A stretch of DNA of 64,000 nt from an uncultured Lachnospiraceae bacterium. GTDB taxonomy: Bacteria > Bacillota > Clostridia > Lachnospirales > Lachnospiraceae. Each line of letters opens with the position of its first letter. Positions within the stretch are counted from its first letter, which is position 1. Below the pieces are notes generated by a model that was not told where the DNA came from, ran no database searches, and saw only the letters and a program-made list of their open reading frames with translations. Shown piece by piece: positions 40,606 to 49,328 of this stretch. The stretch lies in NCBI GenBank assembly GCA_947165025.1, contig CAMUYQ010000012.1, positions 1 through 64,000 of the forward strand. Direction: 5' to 3'. The position numbers and the translations under genes were made by a program.

Positions 40606-41547
40606 CTAGAAATCGTATTCGTCCTCTTCAGGCTTCATTACCTGATGGAGCTTTATCTCAAAGTCCTGCCTCTCCTTCTGCTTGAGGGAATTGAGTATCA
40701 TTCCCGAGAAGAACGACTGGATCGATGCAAGCGCTACAAATCCGCATACAACGAGCGTCGGTATCTTTGACACCGCGTGCGTACGCAGGAATTCCGTAAA
40801 GATCGGAACAAAGAAGCAGAATGCCACAAACAGCATGATGAACGACAGTGCCGAAAAGAACTGCAGCGGTTTGTACACTCTGTAGAAATTGATGATAGTA
40901 AAGAGCACCTTGATACCGTCGCCGACCGTGTTGAGCTTTGATTCGCTCCCCTCCGGACGGTCCCTGTACTGAACGATAACGTTTTCGACGCCCATGTTCT
41001 TGTCTATTGCGTGGATCGTCATCTCGGTCTCTATCTCAAAGCCTTCCGACAATACCGGAAAAGTCTTCACAAACCTGTATGAAAACGCGCGGTAACCGGT
41101 CATTATGTCGGTAATATCGCTGTGGAACAGCACGTTTATGGACTTTTTCACTATCGTGTTGCCAAAGTTGTGGAACAGTCTCTTGTTCTCGGTAAAATAC
41201 GTCGATGACAGGCGGTCCCCGATGACCATGTCGGCCTTTCTCTCAAGAACGGCATCGACCATCTCTCTTGCCGAGTCAGCCGGATACGTGTCATCACCGT
41301 CAACCATCAGGTAGCAGTCAGCCTCGATCTCCATGAACATGCGGCGCATTACATTGCCCTTGCCCTGCTTGTACTCATACCTGACTACGGCACCGGCCTC
41401 TTTGGCGATCTCGGCAGTGTTATCGGTCGAATTATTGTCATATACATAAATAATTGCCTCGGGAAGCGCTTCTTTGTAATCCTTCACAACCTTGGCAATC
41501 GTCTGACTCTCGTTATAGCATGGTATCAATACGGCTATCCTGTTCAA
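40606..41547 (-). CDS. Family 2 glycosyltransferase with two C-terminal membrane helices
   Basis: A 313-residue DPM1/GtrB-like enzyme: VLIPCYNESQTIAKVV, YVYDNNSTDNTAEIAKEAG, the donor-site MVDGDDTYPAD at about 78-88 and DIMTGYRAFSYRF; helices at about 228-252 and 262-288. It should attach a sugar to a polyprenyl phosphate. The start is TTG 41547 with GGAGG seven bases upstream; a nearby ATG is out of frame. It is the first gene of the run dgt-acetyltransferase-GT-C, judged by the 53-base gap before it. Confidence 0.85.
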   Translation of the reverse strand: MNRIAVLIPCYNESQTIAKVVKDYKEALPEAIIYVYDNNSTDNTAEIAKEAGAVVRYEYKQGKGNVMRRMFMEIEADCYLMVDGDDTYPADSAREMVDAVLERKADMVIGDRLSSTYFTENKRLFHNFGNTIVKKSINVLFHSDITDIMTGYRAFSYRFVKTFPVLSEGFEIETEMTIHAIDKNMGVENVIVQYRDRPEGSESKLNTVGDGIKVLFTIINFYRVYKPLQFFSALSFIMLFVAFCFFVPIFTEFLRTHAVSKIPTLVVCGFVALASIQSFFSGMILNSLKQKERQDFEIKLHQVMKPEEDEYDF

Positions 41548-42201: not shown

Positions 42202-43806
42202 TCAAGGTGAAGTTGCCTCTTCGGCCCTCATCTCATTGTCGATCCATTCCGCCCTTCTTTTGTAAAAATCGATCATACCGTCCGTGTATTCTTCGTAATC
42301 ATAGCCGAAGTCAAGGTTCATATCCCTCACATTGGCGTTGCCGAACAGCAAATAGTTGACATCCCCATCATCGCCCAGGGCCCTCTTATACTCCCGAAGA
42401 TCGTAAACTCCCCCCAGGAGAGCTTCCCTGACACCGCCGTTAAAATAGACATCGCTGACAGCTTTCTTAAATCTCTCATCTTCAAAAAGAGTCTTAAACC
42501 ACCCGCCGCAGCGTATCTTCCAGCCCTCGGGATCATCAAAAGGAACATTCTGCTTCTCAAAGTATGCACCGAGCGTTAAGTCCATGTCCCAGACAGGCCC
42601 CAGATACATCTTGCCGTCGTTATGCTTATAATACATGTACAGACTTCTGCTCCACGCATCGTAGTTCATAGACATCTCCTCGACCCAGTAGTACCTGGCT
42701 ATCGATTCAAGATCGGCGATATCTTCCAGATCCGGTGTCTCCTTCGGGCTTTCAACTGCATCAATAAAGCGCTGCAGTATCTTCTGCGATGCCTCAAGCT
42801 CGTCACCGGTTGCCACTTCGGGATAAACGATATCCGCCACGGGATAATCGCCGCCGTCCTCGGTCCATGTCTTTGATTCATACAGGACAGGCTGGTCCTG
42901 ATGTGGCGGATCCATCTTGTAAAAATAATCGCCCTTCTTAAGCGGTACCCTTCTCTTTCCCTGTTTGACCTTTGTCGTAAGCGTATATACACCCTCGTAC
43001 TTTCCGTCAACAAACAGGTTGATGTTACGCATCTCCGGCTGGTATAAAACACCTGCCTTCTTTGCAATACCGTTAAACGTTATGTTCCTGATAAGTGACA
43101 GGTCAAATGCATTTCCGATAAGGTTCCAGCTCTTGTGCTCGCCCATCCCGAGAAGGTTCTGCGACTTGGAAAGGCGAAGTGTGTATGATTTTTTCTTATT
43201 CGCGGTGTGCCAGCTTGAGTTACCTCTGCCCTGGAGCGAAGCCGTTGTCTTTGCAGATCTGTCGTCGGAGCGGCTTAAGTATTCCCTGTACCATCCGTTA
43301 TCCTTTGACTCCTTCTCGCCTACACGTATGTGCATATTGCCGTCGCATATAATATCCTGCTCATCGCGTTCATTCATTGCAGTATAGACATCCGGATCCT
43401 CAGATTCGAAGTACATGACCGGAAGAGTGGCGTGATCGAGCACGACCTCCCATTCCCCGATCATAACGGGATTTGTAAAATCATACACGCGGCGTGCGAG
43501 ATAGTTGCCGTCGATATCCCTGATATATACAGCTACGCATGTTTCAGGCACGTCATCCGGCAGTATCAGGTGTATGTATCCGTCACCGATACTGTAGCTT
43601 TCGACATCGCACGGCAGGTTACGATTTTCGCCGGAGGCGGCTACAAGATCGAAGTACGGGAATGTCAAAATCTGCTCATCCGTGCAGTCGTAAGTCGGTC
43701 TTAAGACCATCGCATCGCTCTTCTTCTCGCACAAAAGAGCCCCTGCTGTTGCAGCGGCTCCTATGACCAGTGCGGTTATAAGTAAAGTGATGCGTTTTCT
43801 GCTCAA
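42202..43806 (-). CDS. CotH-family kinase-like exported protein
   Basis: A 534-residue protein with an N-terminal signal/anchor (about 6-26) and a CotH kinase domain: SLQGRGNSSWH at about 190-200, KKKSYTLRLSK, WNLIGNAFDLSLIRN, GVYTLTTKVKQGK and YLGPVWDMDLTLG. CotH-type proteins are atypical protein kinases, first known from spore coats, and in many Clostridia sit beside DUF4956 and VTC-domain genes, as here. The start is TTG 43806, supported by AGAGGA six bases upstream inside the end of the DUF4956 gene. Its target outside the membrane is unknown. Confidence 0.85.
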   Translation of the reverse strand: MSRKRITLLITALVIGAAATAGALLCEKKSDAMVLRPTYDCTDEQILTFPYFDLVAASGENRNLPCDVESYSIGDGYIHLILPDDVPETCVAVYIRDIDGNYLARRVYDFTNPVMIGEWEVVLDHATLPVMYFESEDPDVYTAMNERDEQDIICDGNMHIRVGEKESKDNGWYREYLSRSDDRSAKTTASLQGRGNSSWHTANKKKSYTLRLSKSQNLLGMGEHKSWNLIGNAFDLSLIRNITFNGIAKKAGVLYQPEMRNINLFVDGKYEGVYTLTTKVKQGKRRVPLKKGDYFYKMDPPHQDQPVLYESKTWTEDGGDYPVADIVYPEVATGDELEASQKILQRFIDAVESPKETPDLEDIADLESIARYYWVEEMSMNYDAWSRSLYMYYKHNDGKMYLGPVWDMDLTLGAYFEKQNVPFDDPEGWKIRCGGWFKTLFEDERFKKAVSDVYFNGGVREALLGGVYDLREYKRALGDDGDVNYLLFGNANVRDMNLDFGYDYEEYTDGMIDFYKRRAEWIDNEMRAEEATSP

Positions 43807-43809
43807 TGC

Positions 43810-44484
43810 TTATCCTCTGAACTCGCCGTCATGTGCAACGAGCGATACTGTATCGACGCCTTTAAGAGCCCTTACCGCATTGATAAGGCCGTCGGCATCG
43901 GTAACTTTTACTTCAAATGCGGCGCTTGTTCCGTTCGCAGTTACGTTCACGCTCTTAACGGATACGATCTTACCTGACTCTCCTGCTGCCTTTTTGATCT
44001 CGTCTGTCGACAGATGTCCGTTATGTCCGACAAAGAGTATCTGGGCGCTCTTTCGCTCCGGGATAAGGCGCAGTATCGCAAGTGCTATCGTAACGCATAC
44101 CGCAACTATTATCGCTACCTTATACAGTCCGGCACCGCAAATGATACCGGTACCTATCGACCAGAACAGGAATAAGAGGTCGATCGGCTCCTTGATGGCG
44201 GTACGGAATCTTACGATCGAAAGGGCACCGACCATACCGAGGGAGATCACGAGGCTTGACTGCATCGCCAGGATAATGCCGGCCGTGACTATCGCCATCG
44301 CTACCATCGAGATGTTGTATTCCTTTGAGTAGAACGCATTCTCCGTGATCAGGCGGTAGACAAGGAAAAGGTACATCGCGATAAGAAATGTGATCCCGAG
44401 CGTCGTGATGATCTCGGCAACCGTGATGTCCGCTCCCGAAAAGCCGTTTGCGAGATTGTTTGTAACAAGGTCTTTAAAGCTCAT
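43810..44484 (-). CDS. DUF4956-family membrane protein
   Basis: A 224-residue protein with four predicted membrane helices in the first 140 residues and a cytosolic ferredoxin-like C-terminal domain (about 145-220). The family signature GMVGALSIVRFRTAIKEPIDLLFLFW (seen as GALSIVRFRTAIK and EPIDLLFLFWSIG) is clear. DUF4956 proteins are regularly encoded with CotH kinases and VTC-domain proteins; the joint function is not established, but phosphate or polyphosphate handling at the membrane is a reasonable idea. GGAGG lies eight bases before the ATG. Confidence 0.85.
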   Translation of the reverse strand: MSFKDLVTNNLANGFSGADITVAEIITTLGITFLIAMYLFLVYRLITENAFYSKEYNISMVAMAIVTAGIILAMQSSLVISLGMVGALSIVRFRTAIKEPIDLLFLFWSIGTGIICGAGLYKVAIIVAVCVTIALAILRLIPERKSAQILFVGHNGHLSTDEIKKAAGESGKIVSVKSVNVTANGTSAAFEVKVTDADGLINAVRALKGVDTVSLVAHDGEFRG

Positions 44485-44499
44485 ATCATGCCTCCGTGT

Positions 44500-45972
44500 T
44501 TATTGATCTTCGTTAACCGTAAGTGAATTCATGTTGTAGTACTGCGCTATCCCCTCATTTACCCAGCTGTTTTCAAGATAGAAGCATGAGAAGTTGGCCG
44601 GGCCCGCCGGAACATCGGATGCGTTCATCGTAACGTCCTGTCCTTCGCATGTTGCAAAGTAGCGCTCCATTTCGGCACACTCGCTGTAATACGTCGAGAA
44701 CGTTCCGTTCATGTCGCACAGGAGCGTCCTTACCGACTCCATGTCCCTGAGCGCGTAGTTATTGACACACAGGAACACGAGCATTGCCGCCGCAAGAGTG
44801 AATGACATCTGCCTTTTTGTCTTATCGGCATCATCCGTCCGCTTGTCGTCTTCATGATTTTTCGTAAATGCCCGTACTATCACCATTCCTAGACACATCG
44901 CACCGTTAAGGAGTGAGATGTATACGGCCTGGTCAATGACGAACAGTGTCCTGTTTGCCAGGAAGTTCATACCGTACCCCATTACAACAGGCAGAATGGC
45001 TACAGGTATTGAAAATACGGCAAGAACGCTTACTGTATAATATGCACGTCTGTGAAGAATGAGTTCTCCTGACATATAAAAGCCGATGATCATGAATATC
45101 AGGAACAGTATCAGGAAGCTCGTGTCGTGAAACAGCCATCTGATCTCGGTATATGTCGACGATACCGTGCTCTTTATCGCACCTGCAAGGCTGAGAGTCG
45201 TTCCGTTCGTGTCAGTCCTTGCAAAGTTTCCGGGTGCCACGACATTTATGAGCGTTCCGGTAAATATCGCCGCAAAGAGCGCTATCGCGTTTTTGTTCCA
45301 TTTTCCGCTCGAGATGAAAAGGTACACGATGATCATCACAAGTATCCAGCACCCGAGGCCTGCCAGTGTGAGCGATCCTCCCGCACCTAAGAATCCGAGA
45401 ACGAGTGCGCCGGTAAAGGCCGCCTTCTTCTTCGATTCGCCGGAAATATACTTTATCCCGAGAACAAGTGCCACATACAGCATCGTCAGCGGGAAGCTGT
45501 AGCTCGTTGCACCCGAGAACCAGTAGAATATCTCGTAGTAGCAGCGGTAGTTCATGAGCGCGAACATGACAAGCGCACAAACCGCAAGCGAAAATCCTCT
45601 GCGAGCGGTAAACATACGTCCCACAGCGTATGTGATGATCCATATGAAAGCCGCAAAGAACGCTGCCGCATTTACGAGCATCACAAGCCGCAGCTGTATT
45701 GCACCGCCGTTATTTAAAGGCGAAAGCCATCCCTGCAGGAACATCGATGTAAAGTTTCCCGCCCAGCCTTTGTACATTTGGATCATGTACGAAAACGATG
45801 TTCCGATGTACGCAAAGAAAGACTCGTGAAACTTTCCGATCTCCATCGCATGCGTGTAGTCGTCGGACTGGTTTACCGAGTAGAGTGTCGCGATAACGGT
45901 CCCGATCACGAAGAAAAAGATCGCAACCGCCGCAATTATCTGTATTATCATGTCGGCTTTTTTCTTTGACAT
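44500..45972 (-). CDS. DUF6056-like polytopic membrane protein
   Basis: A 490-residue protein with about eleven membrane helices and a C-terminal outer domain. The acidic SDDYTHAMEIGKF motif after the first helix is placed like the catalytic acidic loop of GT-C glycosyltransferases, and YRCYYEIFYWFSGATSYSFP is typical of the DUF6056 group. It could transfer a lipid-linked sugar to a surface polymer. It follows the YidC-sulfatase gene by 17 bases and precedes DUF4956 by 15. Confidence 0.65.
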   Translation of the reverse strand: MSKKKADMIIQIIAAVAIFFFVIGTVIATLYSVNQSDDYTHAMEIGKFHESFFAYIGTSFSYMIQMYKGWAGNFTSMFLQGWLSPLNNGGAIQLRLVMLVNAAAFFAAFIWIITYAVGRMFTARRGFSLAVCALVMFALMNYRCYYEIFYWFSGATSYSFPLTMLYVALVLGIKYISGESKKKAAFTGALVLGFLGAGGSLTLAGLGCWILVMIIVYLFISSGKWNKNAIALFAAIFTGTLINVVAPGNFARTDTNGTTLSLAGAIKSTVSSTYTEIRWLFHDTSFLILFLIFMIIGFYMSGELILHRRAYYTVSVLAVFSIPVAILPVVMGYGMNFLANRTLFVIDQAVYISLLNGAMCLGMVIVRAFTKNHEDDKRTDDADKTKRQMSFTLAAAMLVFLCVNNYALRDMESVRTLLCDMNGTFSTYYSECAEMERYFATCEGQDVTMNASDVPAGPANFSCFYLENSWVNEGIAQYYNMNSLTVNEDQ

Positions 45973-45989
45973 TACTATCTTCTCTTAAA

Positions 45990-48581
45990 CTATTCCTCGC
46001 ATATCGACCAGTCATCGGCATCGAATATGCTGTCATGCACGTAGAACCAGTGGCTGTCAGCCGTAGAATACGTGCATTCGCTGTGATTGATGAGGTTCCA
46101 CATCGATGACTTGGTGACGATGAGCGGACCCTCTGATTTTCTGTCCGAATTCACGGCATTTCCGGTGAAAGGATTGACGGGATCATCAATTATCTCATCC
46201 ATCGCGATCGTCGGAACGTCGGCATTTGTCATGAAAGAATCATCCGTCTTAAATGCGCCGTTTTCACCGAAATCCTTGACCATCAGCAAAGGATTGATGC
46301 ACTCGACATCAAGATCCATGTCCTCGTGTATGAAATCATCAAACTGGCCGAGCTTATACCCATGATCGGCCACGATTATAATCCTCGTATTGTCGTAAAC
46401 GCCCTGCTCTTTGAGCTCACGCAGCCACTTTGCGATCATGATGTATGAGGAGATGTTCGAATCGTAGTGGATGAGCTGCTCCTCGTCCTCGATATGCATC
46501 GTACGACCGTTAAGCGTGACGCTCCTGCCCGCAGGGTTGTTGTCATATGTCGTTGATGTGAGCACGTAATCAGGCGGATCAAGGTAAACACCCTCATGCG
46601 GCATCATGTTGTGCATGACAAGAAGCTGGTTCTTGTCATCATCCGTGAACTTCGTAAGCTCAGGCAGATGCTTCATGATCACGTAACTGTTGGCAAATGC
46701 GTTCGTAACGCGGTTGGGCGAGAGTGAATTGTATTTGCCGTTATCATACAGGTCTTCCTGGAAAATGAGCGGTGCCACTTTACAGAGGCTGTATCCGATA
46801 AAACGCCTCTTCTGATGGGAAGGATCGGTCGCCTTCTGTTCATCACTCGTCAGAAGTCCTGAATAGCCGCCTGTCGTCAGCCAGTGCGTCTCACAGTCCT
46901 TAACATCGTCAAATATCGTCAGATCGCCGTCATCATTGAAGTTTCCGTACGGAACGTCGCATACCGTCGAATGGAATCCGGCTTCGCCGAAAATCGTCGG
47001 CATCAGCTTTAACGCCTCGTTCATCTCATCCTTCAGCGGCTTGTCGGGCCTGTGGTTGATATCCCACGTCGTATATTCGTATCCGCCGTACATTGACGGG
47101 ATCGCAAGCAGTGTACAGCCCGCAAACGATACGGTGTTCGGATAGTACGTAAATCCCGTAAAATCATCAAGAAGCTCGGGCTTTTCGTCAAATATATACG
47201 GTGCCAGTCCGCCGAGGGCCTTGTCCATACAAAGAACGACTACGTTCTTTCCCGTCCTGCTGAGCGTAACTACCGGCGAATAATCGGTTACCGTATAAGT
47301 GCTCACCTTGTATTTTTCGCTGCTTCTGACCTTTGCGGATGTCGTGACCGTCTGGAACACGCCTATCGCAAGGCCGCTGACTACAAGTATCGACATAGCC
47401 GATACTATCGCCTTAGGATGCTTCTTTGCGAGGATCACGAGGATCAGTGCAACCTGGGCAGTCACAAGGACATTCAAAAAACTCTCGTACATGGAATACT
47501 TGTAAAGACCCGAGAAGACAAGGTCGTCAAACAGCGTTCCGAACGTCTGTGAGAAGAACATGAAGTTCATGAAGAACGTTGCGGCGATCACAAGACAGAC
47601 TCTGCTGTATATCTTCCTGAACTTCGGCGTTCCGAGGAAGAATATGACTGCACCCCATACAAGAAAAAATCCGGCGCATGTGGCGGTCGTAGTATATACA
47701 TAGCTGGTAGGATCCGCAAATTTGCCCTGTTTGACGAATTCGATCGGCGATGAAGTGATGACCGAAAGCGGCACAACGGTTCCCATGAGTATCGATATGA
47801 ATGCCGAGGATATGAGCCAGAGCCTTGTAGAGTAGCTCTTTTCGCCCGTTCCGGCAGGTATGATTTTCGCGGCCTCGTCCGCGGCCTTCTTCTCCTTCAC
47901 CCATCCGAGCTTTGCTGCAAGCGACATCACGATGTTCTTGCCGAGTGAAAACAGGTTGTTGAGCGTCCAGTAAAATACGAGACCCGAAGGGCTCCGGTAC
48001 AGGAGCACCAGGAAGATGAGCGCCATTCCGATCGTCTGAACCTTTTCACGCAGCGGCCCGCCCTTTGTGTAGATGACCGATGAGGCCAGGTTGATGACCG
48101 TCATCAGTATCGGAAGGACGTTTATCGAAAATCCTCCGACCGAGAGCACTCCGTCGGGAAGCCCGAGATCCTTGATCATAAGGAACGGAACCCCGTGCAG
48201 AAGCTGAAGATCGGACAGGAATGTGTATGCAGCTATGAAAAAAGGGATCTGCAGAAGCAGTGAGAGCGAGCTTTTCAGCACATAGTAAGGCTGATAGTCG
48301 TTCTGACGATAGAACTCAGAGAGGATCATGAACCTCTCGTCGCCCTTGAAAGTCTTGCGGATATGCTTTATCCAGTGCTCCATATCCTTCTGCTTCTTGC
48401 GGTCCTCGGCCTGGAGTGCGTCGGATTTAAGATACAGCGGGAGCACGAGTATGTTCACGACCAGGCTGACGAAAATGATCGATATTCCGGGGTTGTTGCA
48501 GACGGAATAGGCCATTTTGAAGACAAATTCGAGTAACAGCCAGATCGGATATATTATCAGATCGTAAAGTATTTCACCCAT
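45990..48581 (-). CDS. YidC-like insertase domain fused to an LTA-synthase/sulfatase-like ectodomain
   Basis: One uninterrupted 863-codon frame. Residues about 30-225 match the YidC/Oxa1 core: VVNILVLPLYLKS, the cytosolic loop with RKKQKDMEHWIKHIRKTFKG, LLLQIPFFIAAYTFL, LPILMTVINLASSVIY and SPSGLVFYWTLNNLFSLGKNI. Four more helices follow (about 255-410). Residues about 445-863 form an alkaline-phosphatase/LTA-synthase-like outer domain: VVVLCMDKALGG (D453), a candidate nucleophile in AGCTLLAIPSMYGG (T490), VMHNMMPHEG and IIIVADHGYKLG (D739, H740). LTA-synthase relatives transfer glycerol- or ethanolamine-phosphate. In the YidC part the groove arginine usually found in the R-L-x-x-x-P-L motif is Asn43. 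Its neighbours are the VTC, DUF6056, DUF4956 and CotH genes. Confidence 0.85.
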   Translation of the reverse strand: MGEILYDLIIYPIWLLLEFVFKMAYSVCNNPGISIIFVSLVVNILVLPLYLKSDALQAEDRKKQKDMEHWIKHIRKTFKGDERFMILSEFYRQNDYQPYYVLKSSLSLLLQIPFFIAAYTFLSDLQLLHGVPFLMIKDLGLPDGVLSVGGFSINVLPILMTVINLASSVIYTKGGPLREKVQTIGMALIFLVLLYRSPSGLVFYWTLNNLFSLGKNIVMSLAAKLGWVKEKKAADEAAKIIPAGTGEKSYSTRLWLISSAFISILMGTVVPLSVITSSPIEFVKQGKFADPTSYVYTTTATCAGFFLVWGAVIFFLGTPKFRKIYSRVCLVIAATFFMNFMFFSQTFGTLFDDLVFSGLYKYSMYESFLNVLVTAQVALILVILAKKHPKAIVSAMSILVVSGLAIGVFQTVTTSAKVRSSEKYKVSTYTVTDYSPVVTLSRTGKNVVVLCMDKALGGLAPYIFDEKPELLDDFTGFTYYPNTVSFAGCTLLAIPSMYGGYEYTTWDINHRPDKPLKDEMNEALKLMPTIFGEAGFHSTVCDVPYGNFNDDGDLTIFDDVKDCETHWLTTGGYSGLLTSDEQKATDPSHQKRRFIGYSLCKVAPLIFQEDLYDNGKYNSLSPNRVTNAFANSYVIMKHLPELTKFTDDDKNQLLVMHNMMPHEGVYLDPPDYVLTSTTYDNNPAGRSVTLNGRTMHIEDEEQLIHYDSNISSYIMIAKWLRELKEQGVYDNTRIIIVADHGYKLGQFDDFIHEDMDLDVECINPLLMVKDFGENGAFKTDDSFMTNADVPTIAMDEIIDDPVNPFTGNAVNSDRKSEGPLIVTKSSMWNLINHSECTYSTADSHWFYVHDSIFDADDWSICEE

Positions 48582-48602
48582 AACTTATTTATTATACGTT
48601 TG

Positions 48603-49328
48603 CTACAGAAATCTTGCAAGGCACTTGGCGTACTTGGAAGAGCTGCATCTTTCAAGGTTAAGTCCGGCAAGTACCTCCCTGATCTCGTTTGGCAGAAATT
48701 CATCGTATTTGATCTCGAGAATGTGCATGTTATCGTCAAGCGCGGGACGTCCCGTGAGCCCGTCATCAAACATGCGGTCAAATTCGCGCGAGGCGGTAAC
48801 GTTTCTGTCAAACGTTACGCGGACGTTGCCTATTTCATACGTGTAGGCGCTCCGCTCATAATCAACGATCACGACCGGTCTGAAGCTTTCCGTAAAAAAT
48901 CTCGTCATGTACTTTTCAAGGACACGGCGGTCGGCGGCATCAGCATCTCTGACCTTGGAACGGACTGCCTGTGAGAGCGCATTTGAGCCAGCGTGCGGAT
49001 CGCTGCTTATCATGGCATCAAACAGGTCCCTTTTGATCTTCGCGCTCATCTTGGAGATCGTCTCGCGGTGGCGGATCTTGATCTCGGCGAGGATAAGCTC
49101 TTCATTGCAGTCGTACGTCCTGATGCGGTATTTTTCCCTCGTCGAGACGCCTGCCATGTTCTCGTGATAACAGCGAAGAGAGGGGCTGTCGCAGTAGATG
49201 CTCCTGATCCTGTAAAATTCGCCCTTCTGATGCACGTCCGGTCTCATCAGGCCACTGATCCTGCTCTTTGCGTCCATCAGGATGCTGTCGGGCACTATGT
49301 ACTTTAATTCCTTGCGGTATCCGTTCAT
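48603..49328 (-). CDS. VTC-domain protein (polyphosphate polymerase-like)
   Basis: A 241-residue cytosolic protein: an N-terminal RKELKYIVPDS, FYRIRSIYCDSPSLRCYHEN, KYRIRTYDC, ILAEIKIRHRETISKMS and VIVDYERSAYTY, then HILEIKYDEFLP. The charged strands match the tunnel-lining basic and acidic residues of VTC4-type polyphosphate polymerases. It is the first gene of the CotH/DUF4956 group on the minus strand, 21 bases before the YidC fusion. Actual polymer synthesis is inferred from the family. Confidence 0.8.
   Translation of the reverse strand: MNGYRKELKYIVPDSILMDAKSRISGLMRPDVHQKGEFYRIRSIYCDSPSLRCYHENMAGVSTREKYRIRTYDCNEELILAEIKIRHRETISKMSAKIKRDLFDAMISSDPHAGSNALSQAVRSKVRDADAADRRVLEKYMTRFFTESFRPVVIVDYERSAYTYEIGNVRVTFDRNVTASREFDRMFDDGLTGRPALDDNMHILEIKYDEFLPNEIREVLAGLNLERCSSSKYAKCLARFL

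Follow-up and report, generated by a model that had tools for sequence, protein, structure and literature searches.

A YidC/Oxa1-type domain fused to an LtaS-like phosphotransferase in Lachnospiraceae, and its possible part in cell-surface tailoring

The window, i.e., the whole stretch of 64,000 nucleotides analysed here (positions 1 to 64,000 of contig CAMUYQ010000012.1 from an uncultured Lachnospiraceae bacterium, assembly GCA_947165025.1), carries at 45990..48581 a YidC-LtaS fusion gene of 863 aa, which lies on the minus strand, as do all other window features whose coordinates are given below (the plus-strand reading of 45990-48581 in the frame of the fusion contains 14 stops). Its product comprises a YidC/Oxa1 core (residues 32-219; 47925..48488), matched by PF02096 60KD_IMP (E=7e-24, 85 bits against a cut-off of 35) and by TIGR03592 (yidC_oxa1_cterm; 88 bits, slightly above the NCBIfam cut-off of 84.3), followed by five extra transmembrane helices (residues ~246-420; 47322..47846) and an ectodomain of the sulfatase/alkaline-phosphatase fold (residues ~436-863; 45993..47276), within which PF00884 Sulfatase covers residues 477-746 (E=5.6e-8, 33 bits against a cut-off of 25). 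A sequence search of the PDB led from residues 14-215 to YidC chains and from the C-terminal part to sulfatases, and a profile built from 35 relatives returned YidC chains at the top (E=3.5e-12), then a phosphonate monoester hydrolase (1.4e-6), sulfatases and, after these, LtaS (0.0012). A preliminary description of this DNA, made from its letters alone, had read it as a single frame joining a YidC core, extra helices and a sulfatase-type ectodomain, and on this the open reading frame, PF02096, PF00884 and hydropathy agree, the PF02096 match confirming the YidC region in particular. Structure prediction, which the same description had advised, was of use for the YidC half (residues 1-225), whose low-confidence model (pLDDT 54) was taken for a fold match alone and gave seven PDB matches at E<=0.001 with Foldseek, all of them YidC; the full-length AlphaFold model (four input sequences) had a pLDDT of 37.7 and was set aside.

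The fusion is embedded in a tight same-strand run, in which it is preceded, 21 bp upstream, by a gene for a VTC-domain protein (48603..49328; PF09359, E=5.5e-43) and accompanied by genes for a DUF6056 membrane protein (44500..45972; PF19528, E=7.4e-13), a DUF4956 membrane protein (43810..44484; PF16316, E=6e-10), a CotH kinase-family protein (42202..43806; PF08757, E=5.1e-32), an ECF-S-like protein and a GT2 glycosyltransferase (40606..41547; PF00535, E=1.7e-18). This run, VTC gene included and DUF6056 excepted (the latter was not labelled there), is common to two further genomes of the genus (loci L065 and L066), each of which has a second fusion copy within a cluster of phosphonate genes (L067, L069). 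The stretch from the VTC gene through the fusion and DUF4956 to CotH (42202-49328) sits directly after addB-addA, as named by eye. In excerpted text of PMC7112168, CotH, a polyphosphate polymerase and DUF4956 appear as a set next to the Pel polysaccharide genes of Gram-positive bacteria.

Averaged over 35 aligned proteins, hydropathy points to a hydrophobic stretch at the N-terminus, followed by five helices of YidC type and a further five; loops rich in K/R (50-103, 164-184, 220-256, 314-324 and 386-390) are predicted to face the inner side and an acidic ectodomain to lie outside. The secondary structure of the low-confidence model, Foldseek and hydropathy together predict a five-helix core with a cytoplasmic hairpin for the YidC half. 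Since five further helices precede the ectodomain, the C-terminal half looks like a whole LtaS-like protein more than like the outer domain alone. The earlier label “LTA-synthase-like” is apt for the layout (five helices, ectodomain, Thr) and less so for the profile, which falls nearer to phosphonate monoester hydrolase and sulfatases.

Within the ectodomain, D453 (47223..47225; candidate metal ligand), T490 (47112..47114; candidate nucleophile), H662 (46596..46598; candidate active-site His, of putative role) and D739-H740 (46362..46367; candidate metal ligands) are invariant in 60/60 fused proteins longer than 700 aa and in 10/10 unfused LtaS-like proteins longer than 400 aa, one 162-aa fragment being excluded from these counts. 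D453, D739 and H740 are presumably metal ligands, and T490 presumably the nucleophile, by analogy with the LtaS/EptA superfamily; these four residues had been singled out from the window sequence alone, and their invariance upholds that choice. PF00884 was scanned against the window protein and against the most divergent fused copy (L062), where the match is absent while the equivalents of D453, T490, H662, D739 and H740 are all retained.

Mean pairwise identity is 0.56 in the YidC half, 0.40 in the ectodomain and 0.28 in the extra helices, the least conserved part of the protein. The polar residues T161, N164 and N208 of the YidC half are invariant in 60/60 fused proteins, W205, which we take to be the groove Trp of YidC, is likewise kept in 60/60, and the fused YidC cores share a GDER motif, conserved within the cytoplasmic hairpin, as well as four additional residues after the first groove helix. 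These figures bear on the possibility that the YidC half is an anchor or assembly platform, which holds transferases or aids the folding of the extra helices and moves no substrate: YidC is termed both an insertase and a chaperone in excerpts of PMC7618853, and a TagF-like domain, which is found fused to YidC in the reciprocal arrangement described below, would gain an anchor by such a fusion, yet an inert anchor should drift, whereas the YidC half stands at 56% identity against 28% in the neighbouring helices and holds its three polar residues without exception, so that we consider this explanation rather unlikely.

One position of the groove proved to be of no help. In the alignments, N43 (48453..48455) occupies the YidC groove-arginine position, which is called strictly positive in excerpted text of PMC8920935, and the 60 fused proteins have N (51), Q (5), S (3) or T (1) there, none of them positively charged. 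Ordinary YidC open reading frames from the same bacteria, however, have Tyr or Asn at this position in 15/17 cases and Lys in 2/17, the 17 (from L001, L034, L035, L076, L077 (two), L079, L080, L083, L085-L088, L091, L093, L094 and L096) having come from a search in which the fused core was the query sequence and being part of the ordinary yidC genes fetched. The lost groove arginine was accordingly dropped as a mark of altered function, because 15 of the 17 ordinary YidCs are likewise without a positive residue, and the change at N43 does not point to a new role.

Whole-genome searches found the near-full-length fusion in 18/397 genomes of the family (a raw tally of 116 includes all weak matches, chiefly ordinary YidC or sulfatases), and, in genome draws that overlap with this one and with each other, in 10/37 genomes of the genus (one in two frames), 9/392 of the order (one of them in another family), 12/391 of the class (eight from one genus outside the order) and 3/398 of the phylum (one in another class), while a contig scan gave three relatives from Lachnospiraceae metagenome assemblies. 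The question of how widespread the fusion is in Lachnospiraceae, which the preliminary description could only pose, thus has an answer that extends beyond the family, and the distribution is patchy, even inside the genus. The fusion is real: because independent, near-full-length copies recur in many genomes, two genes misjoined by an assembly error are ruled out. Fused genes occur as neighbouring pairs in several genomes (L046, L058, L135, L137, L142, L146), and the fused copy in two frames at L070:3016-5585 (genome G423) is either a pseudogene or a sequencing error. Two initial relatives were removed from the fusion set and retained as comparison YidCs, namely, L063, a YidC with a YidC_periplas domain of Gram-negative type and perhaps from a stray contig, and L064, a short YidC without a transferase; in the latter (L064:205-1526, on a short contig), a 216-aa YidC-like gene with a hydrophobic C-end directly follows, by eye, a MerR-type regulator. 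The phage collection yielded no fusion, and four of its records give YidC-like matches over a quarter of the query; these (H1-H4, from Acinetobacter and faecal phage) carry short YidC/OxaA-like genes without the transferase half. Beside the fusion, 22 of 27 genomes yielded a separate canonical yidC, and the assemblies of the other five are 83-94% complete; the genome of the window, for which this check had been proposed beforehand, has its own separate yidC.

The neighbourhoods of the fusion relatives were compared across 52 fusion loci from 43 genomes or records, some of which end at contig ends, with neighbours labelled by similarity to representatives. A gene for a TagF-like CDP-polyol phosphotransferase (a label resting on PF04464 in the representative) is adjacent to the fusion in 29/52 loci and lies within 10 kb in 35/52, and as ORF calling missed at least two TagF-like genes (G109, G169; over-long or overlapping ORFs), the adjacency counts are low estimates. 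At least one of the enzymes phosphoenolpyruvate mutase (Ppm), phosphonopyruvate decarboxylase (Ppd) and aminoethylphosphonate transaminase (PhnW), whose representatives pass NCBIfam cut-offs, is encoded within 10 kb in 15/52 loci; a nucleotidyltransferase, whose representative matches PF12804 and has no NCBIfam model above cut-off among the matches listed, in 18/52; and a choline-kinase-like gene in 9/52. At least one of these partner types is present within 10 kb in 39/52 loci, and 13/52, the window's included, have none of them within that distance. A PF04464 search of 27 fusion genomes returned 40 matches, of which one falls short of the cut-off and another is the YidC-TagF protein of G022, and placed such a match within 10 kb of the fusion in 22/27 genomes (coordinates compared by eye; the others are G000, G423, G397, G004 and G215), the chance expectation being about one in a hundred per genome by a hand estimate that takes ~1.5 copies and genomes of 2-4 Mb. 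When 100 of the 183 unlabelled neighbours were scanned with Pfam, GT2 came out as the commonest family (7/100), and none of the 25 families listed out of 133 emerged as another constant partner. A membrane protein without a Pfam match recurs beside phosphonate genes (cluster 8, six loci; e.g., L068:6506-8050 and, by eye, L199:6601-8031), and is perhaps a C-type glycosyltransferase.

In the window, the 10 kb on either side of the fusion contain no TagF-like, phosphonate, nucleotidyltransferase or choline-kinase-like gene. Its genome has one PF04464 gene, inside a PhnW-Ppm-NTP-TagF-Ppd cluster on another contig; the Ppm, Ppd and PhnW of this cluster exceed curated cut-offs, and no fusion gene was found in the stretch read around it. 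Any cooperation in this genome would therefore be in trans. The same genome encodes one other PF00884 protein, 519 aa long, with N-terminal hydrophobic stretches (by eye).

A PF02096 search of the fusion genomes also brought up a reciprocal fusion, YidC-TagF, as a 660-aa frame, the representative of which combines PF02096 (E=8.2e-31) and PF04464 (E=3.3e-11) on one protein and directly follows an unfused LtaS-like gene (PF00884, E=2.1e-8). YidC-TagF genes are present in 15/299 family genomes (two, in G216 and G251, are cut by contig ends), and 17 fetched loci of 14 genomes could be inspected for neighbours. An LtaS-like gene lies within 10 kb in 9/17 of these loci and is adjacent in 5, phosphonate genes lie within 10 kb in 8/17, a nucleotidyltransferase in 13/17 and activation or phosphonate genes in 13/17, and no separate TagF-like gene was labelled at any of the 17. 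The remaining 8/17 loci have no LtaS-like gene within 10 kb, and a profile of the fused C-terminal half finds the same nine loci as before and no others.

In trees of the YidC cores, those of YidC-LtaS are monophyletic (35 proteins, support 0.885), as are those of YidC-TagF (support 0.999; 16 of the 17 proteins, one short one being left out), and no rooting unites the two fused groups into one clade without three other YidCs; the two groups share 18% identity, less than the 21% and 26% that they share with the comparison YidCs. Since each fused group is monophyletic, their mutual identity is this low and an exclusive joint clade is missing, the data suggest that YidC was recruited twice into the same three-part set, and in its two fusions it pairs with either the inner-face (TagF-like) or the outer-face (LtaS-like) transferase of one gene set. 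This apparent double recruitment is the main reason for tying the role of YidC to a step between the two transferases. The trees likewise speak to another explanation, in which a transferase became attached by chance to a housekeeping YidC and the two halves work apart: each half is recognisable as a member of a broad family, but the fused cores form a clade of their own at 21% identity to the comparison YidCs, the canonical yidC persists alongside in 22/27 genomes, and the two halves co-vary (Mantel r=0.69, with 0/2000 permutations as high), a correlation that joint inheritance alone would suffice to produce. We regard such a chance origin as highly improbable.

What, then, might a YidC domain be doing between two transferases? 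TagF-like enzymes work at the inner face with CDP-activated donors, and LtaS/EptA-like enzymes at the outer face with lipid donors. Our tentative reading, to which we give somewhat less than an even chance, is that the fusion is a two-part membrane enzyme of cell-surface tailoring, in which the YidC groove conveys a phosph(on)ate headgroup, linked to a lipid, to the outer transferase. In this scheme, a cytoplasmic TagF-like transferase would use a CMP- or CDP-activated phosph(on)ate (2-aminoethylphosphonate, phosphocholine or a polyol phosphate) to charge either a membrane lipid or a glycan carried on a lipid, and the polar head of that lipid would cross to the outer leaflet through the hydrophilic groove of the YidC-type domain; there the Thr nucleophile of the fused LtaS-like ectodomain would accept the head group, for transfer to a surface polymer. 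Lipid scrambling has been observed in liposomes with E. coli YidC, yeast Oxa1 and Get1, and in simulations it runs along the region used for insertion (both in excerpts of PMC10491306). This headgroup relay is ranked first because a lipid-linked group would have to move between the TagF-like and LtaS-like steps and because members of the YidC family scramble lipids. The linkage to TagF-like and phosphonate genes, the reciprocal fusion, the conservation of the YidC half and the predicted outward ectodomain all appear to favour it; against it stand the 8/17 YidC-TagF loci that have no LtaS-like neighbour, the missing PF00884 match in L062, the 13/52 partnerless fusion loci and the window copy itself, which sits with VTC, DUF4956 and CotH instead. 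The chemistry, the lipid substrate and the role of the groove are what we infer here; the gene linkage is observed, and is compatible with lipid transfer and protein insertion alike. The putative membrane machine envisaged in the preliminary description, which would deliver a substrate into or through the membrane and alter it on site, gains from gene context and reciprocal fusion.

Protein insertion would take the form of a dedicated insertase: the YidC half would insert either one particular small membrane protein (or lipoprotein) or the multi-spanning proteins of the pathway, and the ectodomain would then modify the inserted protein or its glycan. Members of the YidC/Oxa1 family are, after all, insertases, the predicted helix pattern with its cytoplasmic hairpin and the sequence matches to YidC chains fit this role, and W205 is kept throughout. 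Against this explanation, which we deem unlikely, though less so than an anchor, there is the separate canonical yidC in most fusion genomes, the sharing of YidC with transferases placed on both sides of the membrane, and the fact that no recurrent substrate-like protein was seen among the neighbour clusters, which covered proteins of at least 90 aa and in which a smaller substrate would be missed. A bolder version of the headgroup relay, that a branch of YidC/Oxa1 left insertion and became a dedicated lipid-headgroup shuttle, fused to either a TagF-like loader or an LtaS-like acceptor transferase and supplying the missing transmembrane step of phosphonyl tailoring, we hold to be rather doubtful.

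These natural YidC fusions with both kinds of transferase link two questions, as the route of activated phosphonate to the cell surface is described as enigmatic in excerpts of PMC6697681, and a direct in-cell test of lipid scrambling by the YidC family is, according to the authors of PMC10491306 (in excerpted text), very hard; both fusions are compact proteins for testing the phosphonate route and lipid scrambling together. The preliminary description knew of no characterised protein with a YidC-transferase pairing, and, in keeping with this, no precedent for a YidC-sulfatase/LTA-synthase or YidC-TagF fusion appeared among the open-licence literature matches listed, nor do the excerpts of a YidC family survey (PMC2706819) mention a fusion or a sulfatase. 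Both halves belong to known families; it is their combination and the module swap with TagF that are new among the literature searched.

The likeness to YidC/Oxa1 insertases lies in the core at residues 32-219, which exceeds the PF02096 and TIGR03592 cut-offs, and in the fold match of the N-terminal model, whereas the LtaS-like membrane protein borne at the C-terminus, the separate clade, the GDER motif and the four extra residues set the fusion apart. With LtaS/EptA phosphotransferases it shares five helices, an outer sulfatase-fold domain and the Asp/Thr/His/Asp-His set, but it is joined to an insertase domain and its sequence match to LtaS is weak (E=0.0012). MprF, which joins a flippase to an enzyme that modifies lipids, would offer a parallel in combining transport and modification within one chain, although the folds are unrelated. 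The Pnt/Lic clusters, as far as excerpts of PMC6697681 describe them, resemble the surroundings of some fusion copies in Ppm, Ppd, PhnW and the PF12804/PF01467 nucleotidyltransferases, and differ in that LicD-like phosphotransferases are found there, whereas TagF-like and YidC-LtaS genes are found here.
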